From Pseudomonas fluorescens Q2-87 (GTDB taxonomy: Bacteria > Pseudomonadota > Gammaproteobacteria > Pseudomonadales > Pseudomonadaceae), in contig NZ_CM001558.1 in NCBI RefSeq assembly GCF_000281895.1, forward strand, positions 3,848,556-3,912,555: a DNA stretch of 64,000 nt, written 5' to 3'. A model generated the notes under the pieces. The model was not told the DNA's origin and did not search any database. It worked only from the letters and a program-made list of their open reading frames with translations. The number at the start of each line of letters is the position of its first letter. Position 1 is the first letter of the stretch. Positions 30,050 through 41,422 of the stretch are shown here, in pieces. The translations under genes were made by a program, and so were the position numbers.

Positions 30050-30146
30050 TTTTTCGCGAGCAAGCCCGCTCCCACATTGAGTACATAGTTCACGCAGCAT
30101 TGTGTGTAGGACGCTAAACCTGTGGGAGCGGGCTTGCTCGCGAAGA
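30050..30146. repeat. REPIN
   Basis: TTTTCGCGAGCAAGCCCGCT (30051-30070) faces TGTGGGAGCGGGCTTGCTCG (30121-30140), which continues CGAA. In the gap between LysR and liuR. Confidence 0.88.
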
Positions 30147-30176: not shown

Positions 30177-30192
30177 TTGACGTGAACGTCAA
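30177..30192. promoter_or_regulatory. LiuR-type operator upstream of liuR
   Basis: TTGACGTGAACGTCAA: 7-bp arms TTGACGT/ACGTCAA around GA, 45 nt before liuR. It shares the GACGT...ACGTnAA core with the two sites before liuA, so liuR is probably autoregulated. The 16-bp MerR-type palindrome agrees with published LiuR sites as I remember them. Confidence 0.75.
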
Positions 30193-30236: not shown

Positions 30237-30638
30237 ATGAGCAGCCAGACCTACAGCATCTCCGACCTCGCCCGCGAGCTGGATATCACCACCCGGGCCA
30301 TTCGTTTCTATGAGGAACAGGGCCTGCTGAGTCCTGAACGACGGGGCCAGGAACGCATTTATTCGCCACGGGACAAAGTCAGCCTCAAGCTGATCCTGCG
30401 GGGTAAGCGCATCGGGTTTTCCTTGGCCGAGTGCCGCGAGCTGATCGAGCTCTACGACCCCACCAGCGGCAACCAGAAGCAGCTGCACAGCATGCTGGCG
30501 AAAATCACCGAGCGCCGGGAACAGCTCGAACAGCAACTGCTGGACATCGAACAAATGAAGCTGGAACTCGACACCGCCGAAGAACGCTGCATCCAGGCGC
30601 TGGAGCAGACGATCAACGGGCAGGAAGCCATCCAATAA
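30237..30638 (+). CDS. liuR: MerR-family regulator of leucine catabolism
   Basis: A 133-residue MerR protein. The winged helix-turn-helix is at residues 6-50 (ISDLARELDITTRAIRFYEEQGLL), a second one-wing region follows (RIYSPRDKVSLKLILRGKRIGFS), and a coiled coil at about 85-130 (EQLEQQLLDIEQMKLELDTAEE) forms the dimer. This is the LiuR type that represses branched-chain degradation genes. LiuR-like palindromes stand at its own promoter and before liuA. liuE follows it after a REPIN, and liuABCD lies 3.6 kb away. Confidence 0.9.
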   Translation: MSSQTYSISDLARELDITTRAIRFYEEQGLLSPERRGQERIYSPRDKVSLKLILRGKRIGFSLAECRELIELYDPTSGNQKQLHSMLAKITERREQLEQQLLDIEQMKLELDTAEERCIQALEQTINGQEAIQ

Positions 30639-30652
30639 CGACACCAATCTCT

Positions 30653-30743
30653 TATGGGAGCGGGCTTGCTCGCGAATGCGAATTTACCTTCGGCCTTATG
30701 TCGACTGACACACCGCTTTCGCGAGCAAGCCCGCTCCCACATG
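30653..30743. repeat. REPIN between liuR and liuE
   Basis: TGGGAGCGGGCTTGCTCG (30655-30672) with CGAA, facing TTTCGCGAGCAAGCCCGCTC (30717-30736). It sits inside the possible liuR-liuE operon. Confidence 0.88.
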
Positions 30744-30777: not shown

Positions 30778-31677
30778 ATGTCACTTCCCTCCTTTGTACG
30801 CCTGATCGAAGTCGGCCCCCGCGATGGCTTGCAGAATGAAGCGCAACCCATCAGCGTCGCCGACAAGGTGCGCCTGGTGGATGCGCTGAGCGCCGCCGGC
30901 CTGGGTTACATCGAGGTCGGCAGTTTTGTTTCGCCCAAGTGGGTACCGCAAATGGCCGGCTCCGCCGAGGTGTTCGCTCAAATCCAGCGCAAGCCCGGTG
31001 TTACCTATGGGGCCTTGGCGCCAAACCTGCGGGGTTTTGAAGATGCGCTGGCGGCAGGTGTGAAGGAAGTGGCGGTGTTCGCCGCCGCGTCCGAAGCGTT
31101 TTCCCAGCGCAACATCAACTGCTCCATCAAGGAAAGCCTGGAGCGCTTCGCGCCGATCATGGAGGCCGCCAAACAGCACGACGTCAGCGTGCGCGGTTAC
31201 GTGTCCTGCGTGCTGGGCTGCCCATACGAAGGTGCCGTCAAGCCCGAGCAGGTCGCTTGGGTCGCTCGGGAGCTGTATGCAATGGGCTGCTACGAGGTGT
31301 CCCTGGGCGACACCATTGGCACGGGCACGGCGGGCGCGACTCGCAAGATGTTCGAGGTGGTTTCGGCCGATGTGCCCCGCGACAAGCTCGCCGGACATTT
31401 CCATGACACCTATGGCCAGGCGATGGCCAACGTATACGCCAGCCTGCTGGAAGGCATCGCCGTGTTCGACAGCTCCATCGCCGGTCTCGGTGGCTGCCCC
31501 TATGCCAAGGGCGCCAGCGGTAACGTTGCCACCGAAGACGTGCTGTACCTGCTCAATGGGTTGGGGATCGAAACCGGTATCGACCTGGACACATTGCTCG
31601 CCGCGGGCCAACAGATTTGTGACGTGCTCGGCCGCCCTACCGGTTCGCGCGTCGCCAAGGCCCGCAGCGCACAGTAA
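30778..31677 (+). CDS. liuE: Hydroxymethylglutaryl-CoA lyase
   Basis: Cleaves HMG-CoA to acetyl-CoA and acetoacetate, the last step of leucine degradation. The 299 residues have the HMGL family motifs: EVGPRDGLQNE near 10, the GAYISCVF-like GYVSCVLGCPYEG near 140, HFHDTYGQA (metal His residues) near 200, and GLGGCPYAKGASGNVATED with the active Cys near 240. The usual length is 300. Also known as mvaB in P. putida, where crcY is next to it; the same order is seen here. Confidence 0.94.
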   Translation: MSLPSFVRLIEVGPRDGLQNEAQPISVADKVRLVDALSAAGLGYIEVGSFVSPKWVPQMAGSAEVFAQIQRKPGVTYGALAPNLRGFEDALAAGVKEVAVFAAASEAFSQRNINCSIKESLERFAPIMEAAKQHDVSVRGYVSCVLGCPYEGAVKPEQVAWVARELYAMGCYEVSLGDTIGTGTAGATRKMFEVVSADVPRDKLAGHFHDTYGQAMANVYASLLEGIAVFDSSIAGLGGCPYAKGASGNVATEDVLYLLNGLGIETGIDLDTLLAAGQQICDVLGRPTGSRVAKARSAQ

Positions 31678-31679
31678 GG

Positions 31680-31719
31680 TGTTACCACAGGCTTTGTAAC
31701 GACAGCGAAACGAGTAACA
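31680..31719 (+). promoter_or_regulatory. CbrB-like upstream activator sites of crcY
   Basis: TGTTAC at 31680-31685 faces GTAAC at 31696-31700 and GTAACA at 31714-31719. CbrB is reported to bind TGTTAC...GTAACA pairs upstream of crcZ and crcY. The sites lie about 85-120 nt before the sigma-54 promoter, a normal enhancer distance. Confidence 0.6.
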
Positions 31720-31800
31720 CGGAAACAATTTGTCTGCTTTGCCACGCTCGGTTTTTCAGCTAAAAAATATAAGCTATTGATTTCTATGAAATTTTAAAAG

Positions 31801-31817
31801 TTGGCACGCCACCTGCT
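31801..31817 (+). promoter_or_regulatory. Sigma-54 promoter of crcY
   Basis: TTGGCACGCCACCTGCT: GG at 31803-31804 and GC at 31815-31816 are exactly 10 nt apart, the defining sigma-54 spacing (TGGCAC-N5-TGC). It predicts transcription from about 31828. Confidence 0.85.
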
Positions 31818-31826
31818 ATATCTCTG

Positions 31827-32206
31827 ACATAACAAGAATAAAAAAACGCGGCAAACCCAATAAAAACAAGACGAAACGACTCTGACATAACAAAAACAAC
31901 ACGGCAGAGACGCAGCTAACAGATTTTTTTGGAGAAGATGTGCTTTTCAGGGTGCTTTCAGGAGCAACCCGCAACCGGGCAGAGAACAATAAAACTACCT
32001 TCAGGTAGCTCCCGAATCGGTTGGATCGCCAGGCGAAAAAGCAGGTCAGCGCTCAAAAAAATACGTTTGCTCTTGATCCCGGATGGGGATCGCCAAAAAC
32101 AGCGGTAAAGGGTCACGGCCACCAAAAACAACAATAGGCCGCCCCTCAATAATAAAAAAAGAGCACGCGACGACAAAATTAAAGGGGAGCTTCGGCTCCC
32201 CTTTGT
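31827..32206 (+). ncRNA. crcY: CrcY-type small RNA (Hfq/Crc titrating RNA)
   Basis: No ORF fits this 654-nt gap between liuE and the acyl-CoA synthetase. It is A-rich and holds at least six AAnAAYAA Hfq/Crc motifs: 31862-31869, 31892-31899, 31985-31992, 32124-32131, 32127-32134 and 32148-32155. A 14-nt direct repeat CTCTGACATAACAA occurs at 31822 and 31880. The 3' end is the strong hairpin at 32181-32204. About 380 nt is right for CrcY (about 370 in P. putida), and the place next to the HMG-CoA lyase gene is the same. CrcY titrates Hfq/Crc when carbon is poor, releasing catabolic mRNAs from repression. Driven by a sigma-54 promoter and CbrB. Confidence 0.9.
32181..32204 (+). terminator. Terminator hairpin of crcY
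   Basis: Perfect 10-bp stem AAAGGGGAGC/GCTCCCCTTT capped by the stable loop TTCG. The descending A/T arm gives a U-rich 3' side; it also faces the convergent synthetase gene. Confidence 0.85.
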
Positions 32207-32230
32207 GCTGTCTGGCGTTTGGGGTTTTCT

Positions 32231-32321
32231 TGTGGGAGCGGGCTTGCTCGCGAAGACGGCGGCATAGCCAACATTTATGTCGCCTGGCACACCGCTTTCG
32301 CGAGCAAGCCCGCTCCCACAG
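32231..32321. repeat. REPIN between crcY and the acyl-CoA synthetase gene
   Basis: TGTGGGAGCGGGCTTGCTCG (32231-32250) with CGAA, facing TTTCGCGAGCAAGCCCGCTC (32297-32316). Nearly identical to the copies at 30050, 30653 and 45679. Confidence 0.88.
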
Positions 32322-32331
32322 GAGATCTTGC

Positions 32332-34029
32332 TCAGCCGTCGTGATCACTCAATTCTTCGATGCTGATTTCACGCATGCGGAATTTCTGGATCTTGCCGGT
32401 CACCGTCATCGGGAATTGCTCGACGAACTTGAAGTGGCGTGGCGTCTTGAAATGAGCGATACGCTCCTTGCACCAGGCCTGCAACTGCGGCGCTGTTACG
32501 CTGTGGCCGGGATGGAGCTTGATCCAGGCAACGATTTGCTCACCGTAGCACGAGCAGGGAATGCCGATGACCTGCACGTCCACCACCGCCGGGTGAGTGA
32601 AGAAAAATTCCTCCAGCTCACGCGGGTAAATATTCTCTCCACCACGGATGATCATGTCCTTGTTCCGCCCGACGATGCAGACGTAGCCCTGCGCGTCCAT
32701 GGTCGCCAGGTCGCCGGTGTGCATCCAGCCATCCGGGTCGATGGCCTCGGCGGTGCCCTTGGGGTTGTTCCAATAACCGAGCATCACGCTGTAGCCGCGA
32801 GTACACAGTTCGCCGACGGTGCCTTGGGGAACAATCTCACCGGCTTCATCGATGATCTTGCTTTCCAGGTGCGGCTGGGTGCGGCCAACGGTGGTTACCC
32901 GCAATTCCAGCTCGTCCGCAGGACCGGTCTGCAGTGACACCGGGCTGGTTTCCGTCATGCCGTAGGCAATCTGCACTTGGGCCATGTGCATCTCGCTGAT
33001 CACTCGGCGCATCACTTCGATGGGGCAAGTGGCTCCGGCCATGATGCCGGTGCGCAGGCTGGACAAGTCGAACTCGCCGCGCAGGGGTTGATCGAGCATG
33101 GCGATGAACATGGTGGGCACGCCGTACAGCGCAGTGGCTTTCTCTTCGGCCACAACCCTTAATGTCAGCAACGGATCGAACGCGTCAGCGGGATAGATCA
33201 TGGTGCTGCCGTGGGTCATGCAGCCGAGGTTGCCCATGACCATGCCGAAACAATGATAAAGCGGCACCGGGATCACCAGCCGATCGGCGGCGGTCAGGCT
33301 CAGGCTTTCGCCGACCATGTAACCGTTATTGAGAATGTTGCGGTGGCTGAGCGTCGCCCCCTTGGGGAAGCCGGTGGTACCCGAGGTGTACTGGATATTC
33401 ACCGGTTGGTCAAAATGCAGGCTGGCCTGACGCTCGGCCAACTGACCAGGCGTTACCGCCGCGCCCAGGGCCGTCAGTTGCGACCAAGGCAGAAAGCCTG
33501 ACGGCGGCTGTGGATCGAGACTGATCACACCGCGCAAATCCGGCAACCGCTCGCTGTGCATCTGACCAATCGACTGCTCTGCCAGTTCTGGCACTAGCGC
33601 TTGCAGCATCGCATGGTAATCCGACGTCTTGAACGCCCCGGCGCAGACCAGCCATTGGCAACCGGATTGTTTGAGCGCGTATTCCAGCTCTGAGACCCGA
33701 TAGGCCGGATTGATGTTGACCAGAATCACGCCGATCTTCGCACTGGCAAACTGGCTGATGCACCACTGCGCGCAATTGGGCGCCCACACGCCGAGGCGAT
33801 CGCCGGTTTTCAAGCCCAGCGCCAACAAGGCCCGCGCATGCAGGTCGACAGCGTCGGCCAGTTGTTGCCAGGTGTAGCGCAGCGATTGATGGCGTACCAC
33901 CAAGGCCTCGCCATCCGCATAACGAGCGACCGTCTGGTCGAAAGCCTGGCCGATGGTCTGGGCCAGCAAGGCCTTGTCCTGGGCACCATGGGTATAGCTG
34001 GACTGCAAATGCGAACCGGATTGATCCAT
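32332..34029 (-). CDS. AMP-binding acyl-CoA synthetase of the liu locus
   Basis: A 565-residue ligase of the FadD-like ANL family that activates a carboxylic acid with ATP and CoA. Motifs: the P-loop [15 protein letters not shown] at about 200-214 (split by family memory), the AYGMTETSP motif near 345, [12 protein letters not shown] and [16 protein letters not shown] near 420-450, and the C-terminal catalytic Lys in GKIQK. It lies between liuE/crcY and liuABCD, with two LiuR-type operators in its divergent promoter, so it should serve branched-chain or acetoacetate activation; the exact acid is not evident. Start ATG 34029 with GAGGGGG upstream. Confidence 0.88.
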
Positions 34030-34103: not shown

Positions 34104-34119
34104 TTGACGTTAACGTAAA
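34104..34119. promoter_or_regulatory. LiuR-type operator, site 1 of the synthetase/liuA promoter region
   Basis: TTGACGTTAACGTAAA: near-perfect palindrome around GTTAAC. It lies in the 186-nt divergent gap between the acyl-CoA synthetase and liuA genes. Confidence 0.75.
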
Positions 34120-34146: not shown

Positions 34147-34162
34147 CTTACGTTAACGTAAA
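34147..34162. promoter_or_regulatory. LiuR-type operator, site 2 of the synthetase/liuA promoter region
   Basis: CTTACGTTAACGTAAA contains the perfect 14-bp palindrome TTACGTTAACGTAA (34148-34161). It lies 54 nt before liuA; its centre is 43 bp, about four DNA turns, from site 1. Confidence 0.78.
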
Positions 34163-34215: not shown

Positions 34216-35379
34216 ATGAGCTACCCATCCCTGAATTTTGCCCTCGGCGAAACCATCGACATGTTGCGTGACCAGGTACAGGCCTTCGTCAAGGCCGAGC
34301 TGGCGCCCCGCGCAGCGCAAATCGATATCGATAACCTGTTTCCCGCCGACATGTGGCGCAAGTTCGGTGACATGGGCCTGCTGGGCATCACCGTACCGGA
34401 AGAGTATGGCGGCGCCGGCCTGGGCTATCTGGCCCATGTCGTGGCAATGGAAGAAATCAGCCGCGGATCGGCCTCGGTCGCCCTCTCCTACGGCGCTCAC
34501 TCCAACCTTTGCGTGAACCAGATCAACCGCAACGGCAATCATGAGCAAAAAACCAAGTATTTGCCCAAGTTGATCAGCGGCGAACACATCGGCGCACTCG
34601 CCATGAGCGAGCCCAACGCCGGCTCCGACGTCGTATCGATGAAATTGCGGGCCGACAAGCGTGGCGACCACTACGTCCTCAACGGCAGCAAGACCTGGAT
34701 CACCAACGGTCCCGATGCCAATACCTATGTGATCTACGCCAAGACCGACCTGGAAAAAGGCGCCCACGGCATCACGGCCTTCATCGTCGAGCGCGACTGG
34801 AAGGGCTTCAGCCGCAGCAACAAGTTCGACAAGCTCGGCATGCGCGGCTCCAACACGTGCGAGCTGTTTTTCGATGACGTCGAAGTGCCTGAAGAAAACA
34901 TCCTCGGCACGCTCAACGGCGGTGTGAAGGTCTTGATGAGCGGCCTCGATTACGAGCGCGTGGTGCTGTCCGGAGGCCCCACCGGCATCATGCAAGCCTG
35001 CATGGACTTGATCGTCCCGTACATCCACGACCGCAAGCAGTTCGGCCAAAGCATCGGGGAATTCCAGCTGATCCAGGGCAAAGTCGCCGACATGTACACC
35101 CAACTGAACGCAAGTCGCGCCTATTTATACGCCGTGGCCCAAGCCTGCGAGCGCGGCGAAACCACCCGCAAGGACGCCGCCGGGGTGATCCTCTACAGCG
35201 CCGAGCGGGCCACGCAAATGGCCCTCGACGCCATCCAGATCCTGGGCGGCAATGGCTACATCAACGAATTCCCTGCCGGTCGCCTGTTGCGTGACGCCAA
35301 GCTGTACGAAATCGGTGCCGGCACCAGCGAGATTCGCCGGATGCTGATCGGCCGCGAACTGTTCAACGAAACCCGCTAA
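34216..35379 (+). CDS. liuA: Isovaleryl-CoA dehydrogenase
   Basis: Oxidises isovaleryl-CoA to 3-methylcrotonyl-CoA in leucine degradation, giving electrons to ETF. The 387 residues show the ACAD pattern: [16 protein letters not shown] near 130, [12 protein letters not shown], and the IVD-specific catalytic Glu in [12 protein letters not shown] (Glu247), in place of the C-terminal Glu of other ACADs. The C-terminal [35 protein letters not shown] (family text, not counted as one motif) is intact. First gene of the liuABCD operon; LiuR sites lie upstream. Confidence 0.95.
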
Positions 35380-35390
35380 CGGAGCTGACC

Positions 35391-36998
35391 ATGGCCACGC
35401 TGCACACTCAGCTCAATCCGCGCTCGGCGGAGTTCATCGCCAGCCGCGACGCAATGCTCGGACAGGTCGAGGCCCTGCGCACCTTGCTCGGGCAGGTCCG
35501 CCAAGGCGGTGGACCCAAGGCCCAGGAACGGCACACGTCGCGGGGTAAATTGCTGCCCCGGGAACGTATCAACCGGCTGCTGGACCCAGGCTCGCCGTTT
35601 TTGGAAATCAGCCCGCTGGCGGCCCACGAAGTCTATGGCGAAGACGTGCCAGCGGCCGGCGTGATTGCCGGCATCGGTCGGGTGGAAGGCGTTGAATGCA
35701 TGATCGTTGCCAACGATGCGACGGTCAAAGGTGGCTCGTATTACCCGCTGACGGTGAAGAAACACCTGCGCGCCCAGACCATCGCCCGACAGAACCGCCT
35801 GCCCTGCATCTATCTGGTGGACTCCGGCGGCGCCAACCTGCCGCGCCAGGACGAAGTGTTTCCGGACCGCGAGCACTTCGGCCGGATCTTCTTCAACCAG
35901 GCCAACATGAGCGCCCAGGGCATCCCGCAGATCGCCGTGGTCATGGGTTCCTGCACCGCCGGTGGCGCTTATGTGCCGGCCATGGCGGATGAGGCAATCA
36001 TGGTCCGCGAGCAAGCCACCATTTTCCTCGCCGGTCCGCCGCTGGTAAAAGCCGCCACCGGCGAAGTGGTCAGCGCCGAAGACCTGGGCGGTGCCGATGT
36101 GCATTGCAAAATCTCCGGCGTCGCCGACCACTATGCTGACAGCGATGAACACGCCCTGGCCCTGGCCCGCCGCAGCGTGGCCAACCTCAACTGGCGCAAG
36201 CTCGGTGAAGTGCAGCAACGTACGCCCATCGCCCCGCTGTACGCGAGCGAGGAGCTGTACGGCGTGGTGCCGGCCGATGCGAAGCAGCCGTTCGATGTCC
36301 GGGAAGTGATCGCGCGCCTGGTGGACGGCTCGGTGTTCGATGAATTCAAGGCGCTGTTCGGGACGACGCTGGTGTGCGGTTTTGCGCATCTGCATGGCTA
36401 CCCGGTCGCGATCCTGGCCAACAATGGCATTCTCTTCGCCGAAGCCGCGCAAAAAGGCGCGCACTTCATCGAACTGGCCTGCCAGCGCGGCATCCCGCTG
36501 TTGTTCCTGCAAAACATCACCGGCTTCATGGTCGGGCAGAAATACGAAGCCGGCGGTATCGCCAAGCATGGCGCAAAACTGGTTACCGCCGTGGCCTGCG
36601 CGCGGGTGCCGAAATTTACGGTCATCATCGGCGGCAGCTTTGGCGCGGGCAACTATGGCATGTGCGGTCGCGCCTATGACCCACGGTTCCTGTGGATGTG
36701 GCCGAATGCGCGAATTGGTGTGATGGGTGCCGAACAGGCGGCCGGTGTGCTGGTGCAGGTCAAGCGTGAACAGGCCGAACGCAGCGGTCATCCGTTCAGC
36801 GCCGAACAGGAAGCCGAGATCAAGCAACCGATCCTCGACCAGTATGAAAAGCAGGGCCACCCCTACTATTCCAGTGCAAGGTTGTGGGATGACGGCGTCA
36901 TCGATCCGGCCCAGACCCGCGATGTACTGGGCCTGGCCTTGTCCGCGTCACTGAACGCGCCTATCGAATCGAGCCGCTTCGGCGTGTTCCGGATGTAA
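35391..36998 (+). CDS. liuB: Methylcrotonyl-CoA carboxylase, carboxyltransferase (beta) subunit
   Basis: Moves CO2 from carboxybiotin to 3-methylcrotonyl-CoA. The 535 residues have the two crotonase-like carboxyltransferase domains: [19 protein letters not shown] near 138, [19 protein letters not shown] near 180, and in the second half [20 protein letters not shown] near 365 and [20 protein letters not shown] near 410. These match the acyl-CoA carboxyltransferase family. Works with LiuD. Eleven nt after liuA; AGCTGACC precedes the ATG. Confidence 0.95.
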
Positions 36999-37011
36999 AC
37001 GGGGAATGCCC

Positions 37012-37830
37012 ATGGATAACTTCAACACCCTTGAACTGCTCACCGACCCGCGCGGCTTTGCCACGCTGTGGCTCAGCCGTGAGTCGAAAAACAATGCGTT
37101 CAACGCCGAAATGATCCGTGAACTGATCCTGGCGCTGGACCATGTCGGCGGCGACCCGAACCTGCGCTTCCTGTTGATCCGCGGGCGTGGCAAACATTTC
37201 AGCGCCGGCGCCGATCTGGCCTGGATGCAGCAATCGGCCGAGCTTGATTATCACACCAACCTCGACGACGCCCGGGAACTGGCGGAACTGATGTACAACC
37301 TCGCCAAGCTGAAGATTCCTACGCTGGCCGTCGTCCAGGGCGCGGCATTCGGTGGTGCACTGGGGCTGATCAGCGCCTGTGACATGGCGATTGGCGCCGA
37401 TGAAGCGCAGTTCTGCCTGTCGGAAGTGCGCATTGGCCTGGCACCGGCGGTGATCAGCCCGTTCGTGGTCCAGGCCATCGGCGAGCGCGCGGCTCGTCGA
37501 TATGCCCTGACCGCTGAACGTTTCGGCGGGCAGCGTGCGAAAGACATCGGTTTGCTGTCGGAAAGTTATCCGGCCGAGGCGTTGGACCAGCACGTCGAGC
37601 ACTGGGTGGAAAATCTTTTGCTCAACAGCCCGGCAGCCATGCGCGCCAGCAAAGAATTGTTGCGTGAAGTGGGCAACGGCGCCCTCACCCCGGCCCTGCG
37701 CCGCTACACCGAAAACGCCATCGCCCGCATTCGCGTCAGTCCCGAAGGGCAGGAAGGGCTGCGGGCCTTCCTGCAAAAACGCACGCCGAACTGGCAAGCC
37801 GAATCGAATAACAAGGAGCCGCGTCGATGA
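37012..37830 (+). CDS. liuC: Methylglutaconyl-CoA hydratase (enoyl-CoA hydratase family)
   Basis: Hydrates 3-methylglutaconyl-CoA to HMG-CoA. The 272 residues have the crotonase motifs RGRGKHFSAGADLAWMQ (about 60-76), GAAFGGALGLISACDMAIGADEAQF (oxyanion hole and catalytic Glu region, about 112-136) and SEVRIGLAPAVISPFV. The ATG at 37012 has GGGGA 7 nt upstream; the ATG at 37006 is too near it. The stop overlaps the liuD start (ATGA). Confidence 0.93.
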   Translation: MDNFNTLELLTDPRGFATLWLSRESKNNAFNAEMIRELILALDHVGGDPNLRFLLIRGRGKHFSAGADLAWMQQSAELDYHTNLDDARELAELMYNLAKLKIPTLAVVQGAAFGGALGLISACDMAIGADEAQFCLSEVRIGLAPAVISPFVVQAIGERAARRYALTAERFGGQRAKDIGLLSESYPAEALDQHVEHWVENLLLNSPAAMRASKELLREVGNGALTPALRRYTENAIARIRVSPEGQEGLRAFLQKRTPNWQAESNNKEPRR

Positions 37831-39776
37831 GCGCCCCTGTCCTTACTACGTTGCTGGTGGCCAACCGCGGCGAAATCGCCTGCCGAGTGATGCGCACCGC
37901 CAAGGCCATGGGTCTGACCACCGTGGCCGTGCACAGCGCCACCGACCGCGATGCTCGTCACAGTCGTGAAGCCGATATCCGCGTCGACCTGGGCGGCAGC
38001 AAGGCCGCCGATAGCTACCTGCAGATCGACAAGCTGATCGCCGCCGCCCGGGCCAGTGGCGCCCAGGCCATCCACCCTGGCTATGGTTTTCTTTCCGAGA
38101 ACGCAGGGTTCGCCCGGGCGATTGAAAACGCCGGACTGATCTTTCTCGGCCCGCCCGCCTCGGCCATCGATGCCATGGGCAGCAAATCCGCGGCCAAGGC
38201 GTTGATGGAAACCGCCGGCGTGCCGCTGGTGCCCGGTTATCACGGCGAAGCCCAGGACCTGGAAACCTTTCGTGCTGCCGCCGAGCGCATCGGCTATCCG
38301 GTGCTGCTCAAGGCCACCGCCGGCGGTGGTGGCAAGGGTATGAAAGTCGTCGAGGATGTCAACCAACTGGCCGAGGCCCTCGCGTCGGCACAGCGCGAAG
38401 CGCAGTCTTCGTTCGGCGACTCGCGGATGCTGGTGGAAAAATACCTGCTCAAGCCGCGCCACGTGGAAATCCAAGTGTTCGCCGATCAGCACGGCAACTG
38501 CTTGTACCTCAACGAGCGCGATTGCTCGATCCAGCGCCGTCACCAGAAAGTGGTGGAAGAAGCCCCTGCCCCCGGCCTGACCTCGCAATTGCGCCGTGCA
38601 ATGGGCGAAGCGGCCGTGCGCGCGGCCCAGGCGATCGGCTATGTCGGGGCAGGTACAGTGGAATTTCTGCTGGATTCGCGGGGCGAGTTTTTCTTCATGG
38701 AAATGAACACCCGCTTGCAGGTGGAGCATCCGGTCACCGAAGCGATCACCGGGCTGGACCTGGTGGCCTGGCAGATCCGCGTGGCCCAGGGCGAGCGCTT
38801 GCCGATCACTCAGGAGCAAGTGCCGCTGTTGGGGCATGCGATTGAAGTGCGCCTGTATGCCGAAGACCCGGCCAACGATTTCCTGCCGGCTACCGGGCAC
38901 CTGGCGTTGTACCGCGAATCTGCAGAAGGGCCGGGTCGGCGGGTCGACAGCGGGGTTGAAGAAGGCGACGAGATTTCGCCCTTCTACGACCCGATGCTTG
39001 GCAAGCTGATCGCCTGGGGCGAGGACCGTGAGCAGGCACGGCTGCGGCTGCTGGGCATGCTCGACGAATTCGCCATCGGCGGATTGAAGACCAATATCGG
39101 TTTCCTGCGACGCATCGTGGCCCACCCCGCTTTTGCAGCAGCAGAACTGGACACAGGATTTATCCCACGCTATCAGACGCAATTGCTGCCAACGCCTGGT
39201 GAACTGGATGACGGTTTCTGGCTCGCCGCCGCCCATGGTTTTGCCTTGGGCCTGGCCCCGCATGTCCGGTCCGACGACGCCAATTCGCCCTGGGCCGACA
39301 ACGGCGGCCTGCGTCTGGGGCTGCCCCGGGAAACCACCCTGCATTTGAGCTGCGAAGGACAGGATCGCGCGCTGACGCTGGACGTTTCTGCCGGTGGTGC
39401 GGCGCTCAAGGGCGAACAACTGACAATCGAGCACAATGGCGTGCGCCGCACTCATCGGGCCATTCGCCAAGGCGAAAGCCTGTATCTGCAATGGGAAGGT
39501 GACCTGCACCGCGTTGACCCGTACGACCCGTTGGCTGCCGCCGATGCCAGCCACAGCCACCAAGGCGGCCTGAGCGCCCCCATGAACGGCAGCATTGTCC
39601 GAGTACTGGTGAGCGTCGGCCAAGCGGTGGAAGCCGGAGCTCAACTGGTGGTGCTGGAGGCGATGAAAATGGAGCACAGCATTCGCGCCCCCAAGGCCGG
39701 GACGATCAAGGCGCTGTATTGCCAGGAAGGTGAAATGGTCAGCGAGGGCTGCGCCCTGGTGGCATTCGAAGAATAG
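37827..39776 (+). CDS. liuD: Methylcrotonyl-CoA carboxylase, biotin-containing (alpha) subunit
   Basis: Holds biotin and carboxylates it with ATP and bicarbonate. The 649 residues are, in order: biotin-carboxylase N-lobe (LLVANRGEIACRVMRTA from 9), ATP-grasp with KATAGGGGKGMKVV near 160, the catalytic HPGYGFLSENAGFARA and EMNTRLQVEHPVTE, a linker domain, and a C-terminal biotinyl domain with the biotinylated Lys614 in EAMKMEHSI. Normal length. Last gene of the operon. Confidence 0.95.
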   Translation: MSAPVLTTLLVANRGEIACRVMRTAKAMGLTTVAVHSATDRDARHSREADIRVDLGGSKAADSYLQIDKLIAAARASGAQAIHPGYGFLSENAGFARAIENAGLIFLGPPASAIDAMGSKSAAKALMETAGVPLVPGYHGEAQDLETFRAAAERIGYPVLLKATAGGGGKGMKVVEDVNQLAEALASAQREAQSSFGDSRMLVEKYLLKPRHVEIQVFADQHGNCLYLNERDCSIQRRHQKVVEEAPAPGLTSQLRRAMGEAAVRAAQAIGYVGAGTVEFLLDSRGEFFFMEMNTRLQVEHPVTEAITGLDLVAWQIRVAQGERLPITQEQVPLLGHAIEVRLYAEDPANDFLPATGHLALYRESAEGPGRRVDSGVEEGDEISPFYDPMLGKLIAWGEDREQARLRLLGMLDEFAIGGLKTNIGFLRRIVAHPAFAAAELDTGFIPRYQTQLLPTPGELDDGFWLAAAHGFALGLAPHVRSDDANSPWADNGGLRLGLPRETTLHLSCEGQDRALTLDVSAGGAALKGEQLTIEHNGVRRTHRAIRQGESLYLQWEGDLHRVDPYDPLAAADASHSHQGGLSAPMNGSIVRVLVSVGQAVEAGAQLVVLEAMKMEHSIRAPKAGTIKALYCQEGEMVSEGCALVAFEE

Positions 39777-40995: not shown

Positions 40996-41026
40996 TTGAC
41001 TTGCAAATGATAATGATTATTATTGC
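40996..41026 (+). promoter_or_regulatory. Promoter and Fur box of prrF
   Basis: TTGACT (40996-41001) and TATTAT (41018-41023) are a -35/-10 pair spaced 16 nt. AATGATAATGATTATTATT (41006-41024), flanked by GCA/GC, overlaps it and matches the 19-bp Fur box well. Iron-loaded Fur should shut the promoter. Confidence 0.88.
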
Positions 41027-41029
41027 ACC

Positions 41030-41142
41030 AACTGGTCGCGAGATCAGTCGATAGCCCAGAAGACCTTAGGTCGGACTTCTGGAATATCTCCTCATCAGGC
41101 TAATCACGGTTTTTGACCCGGCTTTTTGCCGGGTCTTTTTTT
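41030..41142 (+). ncRNA. prrF: PrrF iron-responsive small RNA
   Basis: About 113 nt. The 5' hairpin CTGGTC-GCGA-GATCAG, a second stem CCAGAAG/CTTCTGG (41056-41062 with 41076-41082), the unpaired TCTCCTCATCAGGCTAATCACGG region (41086-41109, quoted in part from family memory) and the 3' terminator are the known PrrF layout. That unpaired region pairs with the start sites of mRNAs for iron-using proteins such as sodB, sdh and acn genes. Pseudomonads other than P. aeruginosa carry two separate prrF genes, so this is one of two; the other is outside the window. Repressed by Fur. Confidence 0.92.
41115..41142 (+). terminator. Rho-independent terminator of prrF
   Basis: GACCCGGC/GCCGGGTC stem (41115-41122 with 41128-41135), loop TTTTT, then seven T. 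A second small stem GCCGA/TCGGC follows at 41143-41156. Confidence 0.92.
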
Positions 41143-41422
41143 GCCGATTTTTCGGCTTATGGCTTCAGGCTAATGAAGTCTTTGGGTGTCGCTCATTCGA
41201 TGGCGGCGATGATATCAAATCAATATCACTTTTCAAGACTTCGGGTCGCCGGACCGGCAAAACTATCGACAGCCAGCACTTGAGAATCAATTGCCGACTC
41301 TCTAAGCTGGCTTCGCGTCCAGGGAGGACGCCCCCTTCTCTTTCGTGATGCAAATCGTCCCGATATTTCCTTTCTTGCGTGTAAAGTAACGGCCATGAAA
41401 ATCCTTTCCAGGAATCGTGACC
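41143..41422. other. Gap between prrF and the M14 carboxypeptidase gene
   Basis: 280 nt without a credible ORF. It holds the small stem at 41143-41156 and must contain the promoter of the next gene, which I cannot place with confidence. Confidence 0.4.

Follow-up and report, generated by a model that had tools for sequence, protein, structure and literature searches.

A predicted CrcY small RNA behind mvaB in Pseudomonas fluorescens Q2-87, with a tentative LiuR input

Crc small RNAs and the LiuR regulon

Besides CrcZ, encoded in the order cbrB-crcZ-pcnB, and CrcY, the CrcZ family has in CrcX of P. syringae a further member, which we take to be lineage-specific. The assignment of CrcX to the family follows the available portions of two reports (PMC12552145, PMC8871633). 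The former, in the same portion, reports crcY besides crcZ in P. ogarae F113 (PMC12552145). The best comparison for the RNA analysed here is CrcY of P. putida KT2440, found in the order PP3539-mvaB-crcY and characterized by a sigma-54 promoter, F1 and R-type CbrB sites, IHF dependence and A-rich motifs. According to the accessible part of a promoter study, P. putida crcY carries F1, R1 and R2 together with a further perfect GTAACA, R′, whose centre lies at −112; changes in F1 affect expression worst, those in R2 more mildly, and those in R1 or R′ not at all (PMC6296734). The crcY gene of A. vinelandii sits between two hypothetical genes and, in the available part of its report, is not described beside mvaB (PMC5429807).

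LiuR is a known MerR-type regulator of branched-chain amino acid catabolism, and the available part of the report on its regulon names no sRNA among the targets (PMC5343134). The present locus resembles that regulon in having a MerR-family gene that heads liu genes and palindromes at liuR and liuA.

A CrcZ-family RNA in the liuE-synthetase gap

The window is a stretch of 64,000 nt from the P. fluorescens Q2-87 genome (contig NZ_CM001558.1). The original prediction placed CrcY in the gap between liuE and an acyl-CoA synthetase gene (31678-32331) and proposed a covariance search as a check. This search returned the Rfam CrcZ family, RF01675, end to end (31829-32236 on the plus strand, model positions 1-398) and scored 370.7 bits, where the gathering threshold is 95 (E 1e-103). 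The predicted CrcY identity is supported by this match, by the place of the RNA behind mvaB and by 95 further loci of the same MerR-mvaB-crc order. The genome holds two family copies and no third. The other copy, at 351.4 bits, has a CbrB-like regulator gene of NtrC type on one side and a pcnB-like gene on the other (names read by eye from the translations). That is where crcZ classically lies, and the window copy is accordingly taken as CrcY. It is almost certainly a CrcY orthologue of about 380 nt, judged by its sequence an ordinary member of the CrcZ family at its usual place. Its start presumably lies about 11-12 nt past the GC of the promoter and its end at a TTCG-capped hairpin; activity in this strain is likewise presumed. 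The kind of RNA is already known and a textbook one.

The family is present in 119/119 sampled genus genomes and, among the matches listed, in 0/14 control genomes. In a tree of 119 copies, the window CrcY is nearest to four mvaB-linked copies (L112-L115) and far from the crcZ of its own genome. The 96 mvaB-linked copies group only with two copies from elsewhere, at a low support of 0.56, and crcZ, with 16 copies, does not form a separate clade. CrcZ and the window CrcY have RNA family and promoter logic in common but differ in locus, in the spacing of CbrB sites and in their place in the tree. That the window copy has decayed or fallen silent is conceivable in a genome with a second family copy, yet the window copy is the higher-scoring of the two and its promoter and motifs are intact and conserved, which makes this reading extremely improbable. 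A plasmid search gave 14 records, whose matches were confined to the query's mvaB end or to a repeat-like stretch past the RNA. The gap had also been described as free of ORFs. Mechanical ORFs of at least 100 aa do overlap it, for instance at 31958-32290 (−), 32046-32348 (−) and 32083-32937 (+), and they either fall on the RNA or run antisense to the synthetase gene.

Features of the crcY locus in window coordinates
Feature	Position	Strand	Basis or remark
LiuR-like palindrome TTGACGTGAACGTCAA, ahead of MerR gene	30177..30192		T[TG]ACGT-N2-ACGT[AC]A pattern
MerR-family regulator, liuR-like	30237..30638	+	MerR-type models, none above cut-off
mvaB/liuE, hydroxymethylglutaryl-CoA lyase	30778..31677	+	NCBIfam NF004283, 492.3 bits, cut-off 246
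CbrB subsite F1, TGTTAC	31680..31685	+	2 bp past liuE stop codon
GTAACG, imperfect reverse-type CbrB subsite	31696..31701	+	near-copy of GTAACA
GTAACACGGAAACA, conserved reverse-type CbrB site with conserved extension	31714..31727	+	GTAACA at 31714-31719
IHF consensus WATCAANNNNTTR	31770..31782	−	exact match
Sigma-54 promoter GG-N10-GC, TTGGCACGCCACCTGCT	31803..31816	+	sequence match
Direct repeat copy 1, CTCTGACATAACAA	31822..31835	+	spans predicted start site
CrcY small RNA (predicted)	31827..32204	+	RF01675; presumed start and end
Direct repeat copy 2, CTCTGACATAACAA	31880..31893	+	within RNA hairpin of family structure
Hairpin AAAGGGGAGC-TTCG-GCTCCCCTTT	32181..32204	+	terminator-like score on minus strand
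Acyl-CoA synthetase, convergent with crcY	32332..34029	−	NCBIfam NF009233, 967.9 bits, cut-off 832
LiuR-like palindrome 1, synthetase/liuA gap	34104..34119		pattern match
LiuR-like palindrome 2, synthetase/liuA gap	34148..34162		pattern match
liuA	34216..35379	+	NCBIfam, resemblance, order; above no model cut-off
liuB	35391..36998	+	NCBIfam, resemblance, order; above no model cut-off
liuC	37006..37830	+	NCBIfam; above NF004227 cut-off
liuD	37827..39776	+	NCBIfam; barely above biotin-carboxylase subfamily NF006367 (599.3 vs 597)

Against named Pseudomonas contigs, the window mvaB reaches as much as 93% identity, and the MerR gene upstream of it can probably be called liuR-like, since it is 73-86% identical to MerR genes heading liuA in 12/14 named loci that lack crcY, orthologues that head liuABCD-mvaB there. 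Unlike the P. putida KT2440 locus, the window continues downstream with an acyl-CoA synthetase gene and then liuABCD; ten P. putida-like named loci with crc have no liuABCD match within about 7 kb. Inverted repeats of the form GTGGGAGCGGGCTTGCTCGCGAA, presumably Pseudomonas REP-like elements, occur at 30050-30146, 30655-30742 and 32230-32322, that is, around liuR, ahead of liuE and past the 3′ end of crcY.

Promoter and regulatory sites

The predicted sigma-54 promoter of GG-N10-GC form is found upstream of the RNA, and such an element lies 10-45 bp ahead of the RNA match in 96/96 loci (window counted). The enhancer sites TGTTAC and GTAACA are likewise in place, along with the near-copy GTAACG, which is seen in the window and a few near relatives. 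Across the 96 loci, the gap contains TGTTAC in 95 and GTAAC in 92. The combined element of TGTTAC and GTAACACGGAAACA occurs once in the genome and its reversed-pattern control 0 times, the pattern having been drawn from this very site. An exact match to the IHF consensus is found somewhere in the gap of 72/96 loci. Conserved blocks in the alignment of the 96 loci include GTGTTACC, GTAACA, GGAAACA, TTGATTT, AAAGTTGGCACG and CTGCTAT. The combination that marks CrcZ and CrcY, a sigma-54 promoter accompanied by sites for CbrB and IHF, is present here in the form of sequence sites, and Hfq and RpoN are encoded in the genome. The "complete CbrB/sigma-54 input" of the original prediction can be upheld for the DNA sites.

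Because of its distance and position, the GTAACA at 31714-31719 probably corresponds to R′ of P. putida. It ranks with the best conserved promoter blocks of the 96 loci, yet its probable counterpart R′ is dispensable for expression in P. putida according to the accessible part of the promoter study (PMC6296734).

A direct repeat of 14 nt had been noted at 31822 and 31880, and the two copies are indeed exact. It had been suggested that it could affect initiation or be a duplicated CbrB or Hfq contact. An exact 14-nt repeat arose in only 4/2000 shuffles of the region, so bare chance is an unlikely source, and this is what speaks for a functional duplication. However, copy 1 is exact in the window alone of the 96 loci, a point of difference from P. 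putida KT2440 as well, and relatives vary at this site, most commonly with CTATGGCATAACAA (34/96) and with other variants too. Copy 2, exact in 85/96 loci, belongs to an RNA hairpin: its CTCTG pairs with a downstream CAGAG in the family structure and A-rich motifs lie in the loop. Furthermore, neither copy holds TGTTAC or GTAACA. The repeat was rejected as a promoter element on the lack of conservation of copy 1, and a functional duplication is very improbable. Relatives have in common with copy 1 the A-rich stretch at which the RNA begins (its 5′ end). The best reading of the repeat is a pair of A-rich motifs with flanking bases that coincidentally match in this strain.

A-rich motifs, 3′ hairpin and proposed mechanism

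Six or more AAnAAYAA Hfq/Crc motifs had been anticipated. The count is seven, every one within the RNA, whereas dinucleotide shuffles of the RNA contain 0.65 on average and never more than 4, with seven reached in 0/2000. Over the 96 loci, the RNA carries 6-9 such motifs (median 7). The anticipated TTCG-capped terminator fares less evenly: the stem is present, but the T-tail is weak on the plus strand (TTTGTGCTG) and the terminator scan scored the hairpin solely on the minus strand.

This DNA directly shows membership of the family, the architecture of the promoter, an excess of motifs and the gene context; activation by CbrB, RpoN and IHF and titration of Hfq/Crc are carried over from published work on orthologues. 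On poor carbon, CbrB (with IHF) would activate the sigma-54 promoter. The seven or more A-rich motifs of CrcY would then titrate Hfq/Crc, and catabolite-repressed mRNAs would be translated again.

Linkage of mvaB and crc across the genus

The genus set comprises 119 mvaB loci from 118 further genomes and the window, 120 loci in all; family and locus counts refer to a sample of 119 genomes. The 96 loci mentioned throughout are the window and 95 relatives, all of the order MerR-mvaB-crc. A crc RNA follows mvaB in 96/96 loci with a MerR-family (LiuR-like) gene just upstream of mvaB and in 0/24 other loci, 23 of which have liuD directly upstream and one of which has it 1.4 kb upstream. In this sample, therefore, crc lies behind mvaB exactly where mvaB adjoins a liuR-like gene. 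Named mvaB loci show the same pattern, although some loci belong to both the named and the genus set and genomes that are related do not count as independent: in 34 loci (L032-L065) of the 80 listed, crc follows mvaB in 20, all MerR-preceded, and is absent behind mvaB in 14/14 with liuD upstream. The remaining 46/80, from other genera or representing a second mvaB copy, gave no profile match.

The first downstream match in the 96 loci is the synthetase in 46, liuA in 15 and liuB fragments in one. In the other 34, with a few contigs ending early, no query gene lies downstream in the fetched stretch, and MerR, mvaB and crc are still together. The junction of crcY to the liu locus, as originally described, is confirmed by this order, and the counts of 96/96 and 0/24 make it an arrangement common in the genus and not a peculiarity of the strain. 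The link between crcY and mvaB is not universal, since crcY of A. vinelandii and seven other copies sit elsewhere. These seven are full-model copies at neither cbrB nor mvaB (L239, L240, L243, L244, L245, L246 and L248), and all their genomes are without crc behind mvaB. A parE-like neighbour is common to L244 and L245, and a membrane-protein gene to L243, L244 and L245 (names by eye); some of the seven may form a further subfamily. Two loci (L196 and L197, in genomes G086 and G051) carry two tandem crc RNAs between mvaB and liuA, besides crcZ at cbrB, probably by local duplication of crcY.

A possible LiuR input to CrcY

A second route to CrcY, unlikely though credible, would add to the CbrB-driven one. 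LiuR would control a liuR-liuE promoter, isovaleryl-CoA-type ligands would relieve LiuR, and read-through past liuE would be processed to CrcY, such that leucine or isovalerate catabolism would itself lift catabolite repression. This input is proposed because of a LiuR-like box, a missing terminator and a reported read-through RNA. The palindrome T[TG]ACGT-N2-ACGT[AC]A lies ahead of the MerR gene in 92/96 loci with crcY, and the best liuA match (identity unfiltered) is preceded by it in 62/78 loci; genome-wide there are seven, three of them at the window locus, against three for the reversed-pattern control. In the window, as in 91/96 loci overall (window counted), liuE and the crcY start are separated by no terminator-like site, but one is present in the other 5/96. 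The accessible part of a P. putida study reports PP3539-mvaB-crcY read-through and processed CrcY, yet calls the upstream promoters constitutive (PMC6292655). The same part states that CrcY fell clearly in an A. vinelandii rpoN mutant (PMC6292655), so that read-through would be minor there, although that crcY is not described beside mvaB (PMC5429807).

The strict presence of crc behind mvaB in MerR-preceded loci and its absence in the 24 others favour the LiuR route, as does the persistence of the trio in the 34 loci without a downstream synthetase or liuABCD match in the fetched stretch. Vertical inheritance alone could nevertheless hold three genes together, and REP-like repeats lie within the liuR-liuE gap of the window. 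The stronger claim, that liuR-liuE-crcY is a conserved regulatory unit in which de-repression of LiuR by leucine or isovalerate intermediates gives a read-through RNA that is processed to CrcY without any need of CbrB and sigma-54, is likewise unlikely. The single new idea here is that leucine or isovalerate might act on CrcY by way of LiuR, and no title linking LiuR to crcY was found in the open-licence literature. If true, one catabolic pathway would report directly to the global catabolite-repression system through a read-through CrcY that would respond to LiuR. The persistence of a second Crc RNA beside CrcZ is discussed in the available part of one report, citing modelling for P. fluorescens SBW25 (PMC8871633); a liu-linked input is one possible answer.

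CA motifs at liu gene starts

Direct feedback on the liu genes was considered through CA motifs at their starts, using a mix of named and unnamed locus sets that partly overlap. Only liuD of seven window starts has one, AATAACAA, ahead of the ribosome site. It was found in 2/24 crcY-bearing loci examined (window counted) and 1/35 crcY-less loci and is therefore not conserved, and CA motifs were rejected as evidence for direct feedback. AAnAAYAA ahead of liuA, absent in the window, does not clearly track crcY, given 30/71 crcY-bearing and 4/13 crcY-less loci. The window copy of AATAACAA, at 37807-37814, abuts the liuD ribosome site and is a possible Hfq/Crc target by its sequence. The liu genes are followed, at 40996-41143 on the plus strand, by a full-length match to the PrrF small RNA (RF00444, 167 bits).
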